Assembly: GCA_014380935.1 (NCBI GenBank)
Contig: JACMIX010000440.1
Location: 1-35,102, forward strand
Origin: Gloeobacterales cyanobacterium ES-bin-141
Lineage (GTDB): Bacteria > Cyanobacteriota > Cyanobacteriia > Gloeobacterales > Gloeobacteraceae
Direction: 5' to 3'
DNA: 35,102 nucleotides
In this document: in pieces, positions 5,124 to 12,895 of the stretch
Layout of the letters: every line of letters begins with the position of its first letter
How positions within the stretch are numbered: the stretch's first letter is position 1
The notes under the pieces: model-generated
What the model saw: the letters and a program-made list of their open reading frames with translations, nothing else
Told to the model about the DNA's origin: nothing
Database searches by the model: none
Translations under genes and position numbers: made by a program

Positions 5124-5800
5124 ACCCTGACCCGCGGACGGGTGGTAGGTAACTGGGCAAAGAGGCTCGCCAGGGATGGTTGGGCAGCACCCGGGCCGGA
5201 GACAATCTCGATGATTTTGTCGCTCGACTCGGGCGTCTGATAAGCCTCCACGCAGACCCGGGCCACATCCGCCCGGTCGATGTTGCCCTCGAAGAGGGTG
5301 TCTGCCGGGCTGATGACGATTTCTGCCCCGCCCGCGCCGTCTCGCAGACCACCGGGGCGCACAATCGTGAACGCAAGTCCACTGCGGATCAGGTGTTCCT
5401 CCGCCCTCTTCTTCCAGAAGAGCACTCCACCAAACAGATTGAGCGGGTGCAAAAGCCGCGAAACGCACAGGGACGAGACGAGAACGAAACGTTCAACACC
5501 GGCCGCCCGCGCCCGATCAACTAGATTCACAGTGCCCTCGTAGTCCACCTGTTGCGCACCGTTGCCTCCGAACCCCGTGCGCGTACCCGTGGCGCAGAAA
5601 ACAGTCGTCACACCAGCCAATGCCGGTCCGAGCGAATCCGCCCGCAACACGTCCCCCTCGAAAACCTCCGGGTCGCCCCCCAGTTCCTGTCGGGCTTTGT
5701 CCCTTGAACGGGCCAGGATGCGGGGGGGCTCCGCCGGGCGAAGTTTCTGGACAATTTGCCGGCCTGTCTGGCCCGTGGCACCCACTACTAGGATGGTCAT
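5120..5800 (-). CDS. NAD(P)H-binding atypical SDR family protein
   Basis: MTILVVGATGQTGRQIVQKL Rossmann motif; ...VERFVLVSSLCVSRLLHPLNLFGGVLFWKKRAEEHLIRSGLAFTIVRPGGL. Start set at the internal ATG rather than 5839. Confidence 0.85.
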   Translation of the reverse strand: MTILVVGATGQTGRQIVQKLRPAEPPRILARSRDKARQELGGDPEVFEGDVLRADSLGPALAGVTTVFCATGTRTGFGGNGAQQVDYEGTVNLVDRARAAGVERFVLVSSLCVSRLLHPLNLFGGVLFWKKRAEEHLIRSGLAFTIVRPGGLRDGAGGAEIVISPADTLFEGNIDRADVARVCVEAYQTPESSDKIIEIVSGPGAAQPSLASLFAQLPTTRPRVRV

Positions 5801-10084: not shown

Positions 10085-10645
10085 ATGTTAAAGCCAACGC
10101 AAGCACCCCTCCCTGCCGATCCCATCACAGCAGAGCTAGTCTTTCATGAACTCAATCCCACGCAACGGGCCTTTCTGGTCACGGATGGGACTGTAACCGA
10201 GCTTCTGGAGGCCGTTTTCCTTGAGGCGATTGAGGTAGTGAAACTCAGTCAGCGGACTGCACCATTAGCCAATCCAGTCGCCTCTCTAGCAGCTGGGACC
10301 GGTGAGACGGGGTACGCACGTGAAGTCCTGCTAGTCGGTAAACAAAGTAGACACCACTACGTACACGCCAGTTCGATCATCCTGCTTGATCGGTTGCCAG
10401 GAACATTGCGCATCGAACTGCTCGAGACCGGTAAAGGTATCGGGCACATCCTGCGCGATCATCACATCGAGACATTCCGGCAGATAACCGGCTACTGGTC
10501 CGAGGCAGCTGCGGGTCTTGCAGACTACTTCGGGCTGATGTCCGGAGAACTGCTGCTGGGGCGACAATATGTCGTCCATCATCAAGGCCGGCCGATCATG
10601 CAAATTCAGGAAAGGTTTGCCCAGTCCACCTTTGGTGTGTCTTAG
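10085..10645 (+). CDS. Chorismate lyase (DUF98 / cyanobacterial chorismate pyruvate-lyase family)
   Basis: NPTQRAFLVTDGTVTELLEAVFLEAIEVVKLSQ...REVLLVGKQSRHHYVHASSIILLDRLP...GIGHILRDHHIETFRQITGYW. Confidence 0.75.
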   Translation: MLKPTQAPLPADPITAELVFHELNPTQRAFLVTDGTVTELLEAVFLEAIEVVKLSQRTAPLANPVASLAAGTGETGYAREVLLVGKQSRHHYVHASSIILLDRLPGTLRIELLETGKGIGHILRDHHIETFRQITGYWSEAAAGLADYFGLMSGELLLGRQYVVHHQGRPIMQIQERFAQSTFGVS

Positions 10646-11217
10646 TATCGACGCACCAGACCGGTCACAATCCCCAGTACCTCAAGACCGCTAACCGGAT
10701 GAATCGGTGAGTAGCGGCTGTTGGCGGGCTCGAGCCAGGTTTGCTGCTGGCGGCGGCGCAGAGTCTTGAGCGTCATCTCGCCGTCGATGCGCGCAACGAC
10801 CACATCCCCGTCCTGGGCACGATTGTTGCGGTTGACCACGACGATATCGCCTTCGTAGATCCCGGCCTCGATCATCGAGTCGCCTTTGACCTTGAGGAGG
10901 AACGTTCCTGTACGGTCTTTGACCAGGTACTCGTCGAGGGAGAGACGATTGCTGAGCACGTCCTCCTCGACCGTGACCGGCACACCGGCAGGAATCCGGT
11001 TTTCTAGAAGCGGGATTCCTAACAGGTCGGGGTCTATGTAGTAACGGTTGCCCTGAGCTTTGAGGTAGCCAAGTTCCTCGAGAACCTGTAGCCAGCGGTA
11101 TACTGTCGTGCGGTGCTGATCAAGGTCCGAGGCCAGGGTCCGTATCGGTGGAAGAGGCGTGGAGCCGTAGGTTTCGATCAGCTGCTGAAGGAACTCTTTT
11201 TGCCGAGCCGTAATCAT
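10642..11217 (-). CDS. lexA: LexA repressor (S24 peptidase)
   Basis: N-terminal HTH (RTLASDLDQHRTTVYRWLQVLEELGYLK); Ala-Gly cleavage site in IPAGVPV; catalytic Ser in KVKGDSMIEAGIYEGD; catalytic Lys in ARIDGEMTLKTL. Confidence 0.85.
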   Translation of the reverse strand: MITARQKEFLQQLIETYGSTPLPPIRTLASDLDQHRTTVYRWLQVLEELGYLKAQGNRYYIDPDLLGIPLLENRIPAGVPVTVEEDVLSNRLSLDEYLVKDRTGTFLLKVKGDSMIEAGIYEGDIVVVNRNNRAQDGDVVVARIDGEMTLKTLRRRQQQTWLEPANSRYSPIHPVSGLEVLGIVTGLVRRY

Positions 11218-11227
11218 ATTGATGCGA

Positions 11228-11241
11228 TGAACACCTGTCCA
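11228..11241 (-). promoter_or_regulatory. Candidate LexA operator upstream of lexA
   Basis: Minus strand TGGAC-AGGT-GTTCA, 10 bp upstream of the lexA ATG and 1 bp downstream of a -10-like TATACT (11243-11248), with TTCACA (11265-11270) at 16-bp spacing. Same format as the site at 12102-12115. Confidence 0.65.
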
Positions 11242-12094: not shown

Positions 12095-12123
12095 TTGAAT
12101 ATGGACGTTCGTTCATATATAAT
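12095..12123 (+). promoter_or_regulatory. Candidate promoter with LexA-like operator in the -35/-10 spacer
   Basis: TTGAAT (12095-12100), 17-bp spacer, TATAAT (12118-12123). Dyad ATATGGACGTTCGTTCATAT at 12099-12118 contains TGGAC-GTTC-GTTCA (12102-12115). Confidence 0.65.
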
Positions 12124-12157
12124 ATGAGCAAAGGACCACAAGTGCATCGGAGTCGCC

Positions 12158-12895
12158 ATGGAAACGCCCTTACGAAATTTGGCTCAAGCTGAGCCATTAC
12201 TCGACAAAGTCCAAATCAAGCCTCAGGTTGTCAGCCCCGACCAGGCTCGTGCTCTGGCAGTCGCCTATCTCGAGGCCCGCGATGTGGCACAGCGCCTCGA
12301 CGACGTGTGCGGACCCGAGAGCTGGTCGGACAGCTACCATTCCTTGCAGTCGGGTCCGGAGTGGGTAGTGGAGTGCCGCCTCAATATTAACGGCGTAACC
12401 AAGTGCGATGTCGGAGTAGGAGACGATGCCAAGGCAGCTTACTCAGATGCTCTCAAGCGTGCCGCCGTCAAGTTTGGCCTGGGCCGCTTTTTGTACCATT
12501 TGCCCAAGATTTGGGGAGACTACGACGCTGACAAGCAACGCTTTGTCGAGCCACTTGCTGTACGCGCCCAGATGCTCAATCCCATTCGGCTCTCGCCTGT
12601 GCCCGAGCCCGGTCAGGATACGGAGGCAGCGGCAAGCGCCTTGAGCGACAAGCAGATGACCTGGCTGTTGCAAGACCTTCTACGTCGCCCTGGCATCGAG
12701 GCAGTCCTTCAAGAAAATTGCGAGAAGATCGACACACTCTCCAGGGCTAAGCGTGCCCTGGGCTACTTGCTGGCCACCCCGCATGGAGACATGGGTGCCC
12801 GCTTTGCGCGCGTTGCGACCCTTGAGGAGTGGAAGAGGCTGATTGACGTGGCCAAGCGCTTGCCCGTCGCCCTACCAACCGCCAGTGGTCAGTAG
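12158..12895 (+). CDS. Rad52/Rad22-family DNA repair/recombination protein
   Basis: ARDVAQRLDDVCGPESWSDSYHSLQSGPEWVVECRLNINGVTKCDVGVGDDAKAAYSDALKRAAVKFGLGRFLYHLPKIW, Rad52 core-like pattern. Confidence 0.8.
   Translation: METPLRNLAQAEPLLDKVQIKPQVVSPDQARALAVAYLEARDVAQRLDDVCGPESWSDSYHSLQSGPEWVVECRLNINGVTKCDVGVGDDAKAAYSDALKRAAVKFGLGRFLYHLPKIWGDYDADKQRFVEPLAVRAQMLNPIRLSPVPEPGQDTEAAASALSDKQMTWLLQDLLRRPGIEAVLQENCEKIDTLSRAKRALGYLLATPHGDMGARFARVATLEEWKRLIDVAKRLPVALPTASGQ

Follow-up and report, generated by a model that had tools for sequence, protein, structure and literature searches.

The 20-bp imperfect dyad in the promoter of an Erf/Rad52-type single-strand annealing gene of the Gloeobacterales cyanobacterium ES-bin-141 is probably a LexA operator, which would bring the annealing protein into the SOS response; from the sequence evidence, we put the probability of this reading at roughly 0.84. 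An SOS-controlled Rad52-like gene in a cyanobacterium had been proposed in the initial annotation of the window (the whole stretch of 35,102 nucleotides that was analyzed), and the proposal is supported, as a prediction, by evidence on the scale of a regulon. The features of the window that bear on it are as follows.

10642-11217, minus strand: lexA, 191 aa (alignment; TIGR00498, 117.3 bits against a cut-off of 110.95)
11228-11241: LexA box of lexA, TGAACACCTGTCCA (TGGACAGGTGTTCA when read towards lexA), 10 bp ahead of the start codon
11243-11270, minus strand: probable lexA promoter TTCACA-16-TATACT, from a consensus scan; its -10 element directly adjoins the box
12095-12100, plus strand: -35-like hexamer TTGAAT, from the sequence; TTG and the 17-bp spacing are kept in the Gloeobacter orthologues
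12099-12118: 20-bp imperfect dyad ATATGGACGTTCGTTCATAT, self-complementary at 16 of 20 positions
12102-12115: predicted LexA operator TGGACGTTCGTTCA, the core of the dyad (scored at 16.0 bits by a matrix that excludes the annealing gene)
12118-12123, plus strand: -10 hexamer TATAAT, from the sequence; TAYAATATG is conserved in the Gloeobacter orthologues
12125-12138: weak second box-like stretch TGAGCAAAGGACCA, just 3' of the -10 hexamer (6.0 bits; candidate only)
12158-12895, plus strand: gene for the Erf/Rad52-type single-strand annealing protein, 245 aa (PF04098, E 8e-13; phrog_1097, E 3e-24)

The initial annotation had described a dyad between TTGAAT and TATAAT in which 16 of 20 positions match the reverse complement, and its coordinates and sequence were confirmed throughout. 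The spacer between the two hexamers is 17 bp long and contains TGGACGTTCGTTCA, which lies 42 bp ahead of the annealing gene (the box is at -56 from the start codon). Taken alone, the dyad is at chance level, as 20-mers that are self-complementary at 16 or more of their positions number 19 in the window and 16.3 +/- 4.9 in shuffled sequences; since such dyads are common by chance, the dyad itself was dropped as evidence. The core TGGAC-N4-GTTCA is common to the annealing-gene and lexA promoters, and the lexA-proximal site that it had been said to match is present at 11228-11241, 10 bases ahead of the lexA ATG.

The lexA gene lies approximately 1 kb from the annealing gene, on the minus strand. 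Its product has the architecture described by TIGR00498, with a winged-helix N terminus and an S24 domain with an Ala-Gly site and a Ser/Lys dyad. Alignment of seven orthologues (72 to 86% identity) showed that the cleavage site A77-G78 and the catalytic residues S114 and K151 are invariant, as is the putative recognition-helix stretch QHRTTVYRW. From these residues, LexA is predicted to be a RecA-stimulated self-cleaving repressor.

A Rad52/Rad22-family assignment of the annealing gene was upheld in so far as the PF04098 (Rad52_Rad22) match reaches 49 bits against a curated cut-off of 20.3. However, annealing proteins of the phage Erf type are closer to the protein than eukaryotic Rad52 is, and the PHROG 1097 profile "Erf-like ssDNA annealing protein" scores better than PF04098. 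The likeness to the phage proteins of the Erf/Rad52 superfamily (PHROG 1097, PF04098) lies in the N-terminal annealing domain, and the closest phage relatives, annealing proteins of Rhizobium and Thermus phages, are 40 to 47% identical over the first 110 to 140 aa. Unlike its phage counterparts, the gene is chromosomal, has a predicted LexA operator, and, in five genomes, lies amid housekeeping genes at a distance of approximately 1 kb from lexA. Its orthologues, 63 to 67% identical, adjoin lexA in four Gloeobacter genomes. The AlphaFold model of the protein, with a mean pLDDT of 49, is too poor to judge a ring-forming annealing fold. A second protein, encoded in the Gloeobacter genome G003 (L022:1495-2421; phrog_10048, unknown function), has a C-terminal stretch in common with the Rad52-like protein, and its reading frame is preceded, at approximately 35 bp, by TGGACAGGAGTCCT.

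The pattern TGRACN4GTYCA occurs at 17 sites in the 3.77-Mb assembly of the window's genome, compared with 21 for the reversed control pattern. Total over-representation was therefore rejected as a test of the motif: in the absence of a genome-wide excess, most of the 17 sites are expected by chance, and probably are chance occurrences, so that placement alone can be informative. The sites include positions upstream of lexA, the annealing gene, recA (RecA Pfam, E 1e-133), dinB (IMS Pfam, E 3e-51), and the gene for a protein of approximately 180 aa without a Pfam match. We analyzed the SOS-gene placements by a Poisson test that used the genome's own site density, 150 bp of upstream sequence, and an assumed number of 20 SOS-type genes. 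The resulting P value was approximately 4e-7 for three placements and approximately 1e-9 for four; for three, it stays below 4e-6 with 40 candidate genes and the same 150-bp windows. The expectation that the motif would lie near repair genes held, with exact boxes at recA and dinB and one-mismatch boxes, TGGACTTTTGTCCT and TGGACAAATATTCA, at two umuD genes of the same genome. The uvrA gene has at best weak boxes and was rejected as a regulon target. A third exact site in the window, at 5368-5381, is inside an NAD-dependent epimerase-like coding region and is probably due to chance. Another dinB-type gene, on contig C1 (L119) of the same assembly, has no box; it may be foreign, as assembly contamination is 7%.

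The comparison set comprised nine genomes of the order, seven of which have LexA. Among them are Gloeobacterales ES-bin-313 (G007), isolate PMM_0068 (G008), Aphanocapsa lilacina HA4352-LM1 (G004), and three genomes of the same genus as the last (G003, G005, and G006), of which we take G006 to be G. violaceus PCC 7421 and G003 to be G. kilaueensis. The box has a regulon-like distribution over three genera. In six genomes, which represent three genera, an exact box precedes lexA, at a constant 10 bp from the start; this lexA box is identical in the four Gloeobacter genomes, and the third genus has TGGACAGACGTTCA. Exact boxes were also found before recA in five genomes (the recA gene of G007 has TGAACAAATGTCCT), before umuD in two genera (once in G003 and twice in G007), and before dinB in G000 and G003. 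The recurrence of the motif near SOS genes was thus confirmed before lexA, recA, umuD, and dinB in other genera. Four genomes from two genera (L156, L082, L074, and L148) have a further box in their divergent gyrB/yebC region, and two Gloeobacter genomes (L155 and L091) have one 40 bp before ybaB, which is apparently followed by recR. No LexA match was found in G001 or G002; the recA upstream regions of these two genomes contain no box (best scores of -2.6 and 0.7 bits), and their 13 exact motif sites all lie away from homologues of seven regulon proteins. Because the relatives, too, have this box ahead of repair genes, lexA, recA, and dinB among them, the box of the annealing gene is very probably a LexA site.

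Before orthologous rad52-like genes, the site is conserved at best in a modified form. The exact window box TGGACGTTCGTTCA is not kept at the Gloeobacter orthologues, where a related form, TGYACN4GTCCA, with a pyrimidine at a normally purine position, is found instead. When the upstream regions were scored with a matrix trained without the annealing gene, the best site in each Gloeobacter genome was at -55 or -56 from the start codon: TGTACAAAGGTCCA in G006 and G004 (13.8 bits), TGCACAAATGTCCA in G003 (16.3 bits), and the weak or degraded TGCACAAGCGTCCT in G005 (6.7 bits). A related box at the same distance is therefore present in three of the four Gloeobacter genomes. Scores of at least 13.79 bits occurred once in 88,452 background positions and a score of 16.0 bits never; this background avoids loci rich in sites or SOS genes, as backgrounds containing them are biased. 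The Gloeobacter box overlaps the -35 element, relative to which it is shifted by 6 bp, whereas the window box fills the spacer; owing to this shift, it was hidden in a gapped promoter alignment and was revealed by position-based scoring. A second stretch resembling TGGACAAGTGAACA, the counterpart of TGAGCAAAGGACCA in the window, lies 3' of the -10 hexamer in all four Gloeobacter genomes (6.7 to 9.3 bits) and is a candidate weaker operator. In other cyanobacteria, nothing comparable was found upstream of Rad52-family genes (the family occurs in 10 of 294 sampled genomes, that of the window included).

An alternative that we consider unlikely, but that deserves weight, is that the LexA regulon is real while the annealing gene is controlled weakly or in one lineage only, with the box a recent gain and the Gloeobacter sequences decaying or unrelated. 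The exact box is indeed confined, at this gene, to the window's genome, and the Gloeobacter boxes are shifted, degenerate, and, in G005, poor. Against this alternative, the box lies equally far from the start codon in each of the five genomes, three of the four Gloeobacter genomes have high scores, and all four retain the second box-like stretch after the -10 hexamer.

The dyad could also serve a different regulator as its operator and resemble the lexA site by coincidence, given that chance dyads of such quality are common and that the pattern shows no total excess. We regard this as very improbable, as several genera carry the exact pattern ahead of lexA, recA, dinB, and umuD, and the lexA-less genomes lack it there. 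Marginally less credible still is a functionless chance palindrome in an ordinary AT-rich promoter: the 19 comparable dyads in 35 kb, with 16 expected, would agree with it, but the site scores 16.0 bits with the matrix trained without the annealing gene, a value unmatched in the 88,452 background positions.

If LexA does use the dyad as its operator, a dimer of the repressor at 12102-12115, between the -35 and -10 hexamers, would keep RNA polymerase off the annealing-gene promoter. Upon DNA damage, RecA on single-stranded DNA would stimulate self-cleavage of LexA at A77-G78, and the operator would empty. The annealing protein would then be made along with RecA, DinB, UmuD, and LexA and may help to repair broken or gapped DNA through strand annealing. 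We infer binding, repression, and damage induction, as well as the repair role of the protein.

The box resembles two established types. It shares with the Bacillus-type SOS box CGAACN4GTTCG the palindromic GAAC-like half-sites, the 4-bp gap, and the location in SOS-gene promoters; however, the half-site here is TGRAC, with the third position often G, and the DNA-binding helix of LexA is divergent (PMC3091678). The Nostoc-type box RGTACNNNDGTWCB (AGTACN4GTACT) is likewise a 14-bp palindrome with equal spacing, and the Gloeobacter annealing-gene boxes start with TGTAC or TGCAC, whereas most gloeobacterial boxes have GGAC or GAAC half-sites. In the deeper-branching G008 (L029), a box of the Nostoc type, AGTACTTATGTACA, lies 25 to 38 bp before lexA despite the same QHRTTVYRW stretch. 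The combination of this recognition stretch with a Nostoc-form box suggests that drift from the common cyanobacterial form gave rise to the gloeobacterial box, a lead provided by one such genome.

In the literature, the SOS switch of the Gloeobacter relatives is treated as either absent or unexplored. Gll0709 has been described as a divergent LexA, with a proposed transfer from alpha-proteobacteria, and the Gloeobacter LexA was omitted from a regulon prediction because its DNA-binding domain was too different (PMC3091678). Both studied Gloeobacter strains have been said to lack lexA, and it was concluded that an E. coli-like SOS model does not hold for them (PMC5101192); repair genes are outside LexA control in some other cyanobacteria (PMC5101192, PMC4759255). 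In a search of freely accessible papers, we found no literature on a Gloeobacter LexA box and none naming Rad52 together with Gloeobacter. The regulatory logic is already known; what appears to be new is the predicted operator of the divergent LexA, the evidence for an SOS response in Gloeobacterales, and the annealing gene as a putative target. We lean towards a broader reading in which the Gloeobacterales possess a full canonical SOS regulon. In this reading, the regulon is run by a divergent LexA that has a box of its own, TGRACN4GTYCA, for which AGTACN4GTACT is the probable ancestor, and it has recruited both an annealing protein of phage origin and a new protein of approximately 180 aa linked to LexA. 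With a concrete box and a list of targets, SOS in this early branch of the cyanobacteria becomes open to direct testing, and a route by which an annealing protein of phage type came under damage control is suggested.

The protein of approximately 180 aa belongs to no known family; it occurs in each of the seven genomes with LexA but not in the lexA-less G001 and G002. A relationship to SulA or ImuA was considered and is unsupported, with no Pfam or PHROG match, and a moderate structural model (pLDDT 63.5) gave no significant PDB match. An exact box precedes the gene in six genomes, with a second box 30 to 32 bp upstream. In G008, where the frame is broken or incomplete, TGGACAAATGAACA, which is similar to TGGACAAGTGAACA, lies ahead of it. 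The gene adjoins nuo genes (L012:835-1371, on contig C334 of the window's genome; L060, L162, L089, L070, and L107).
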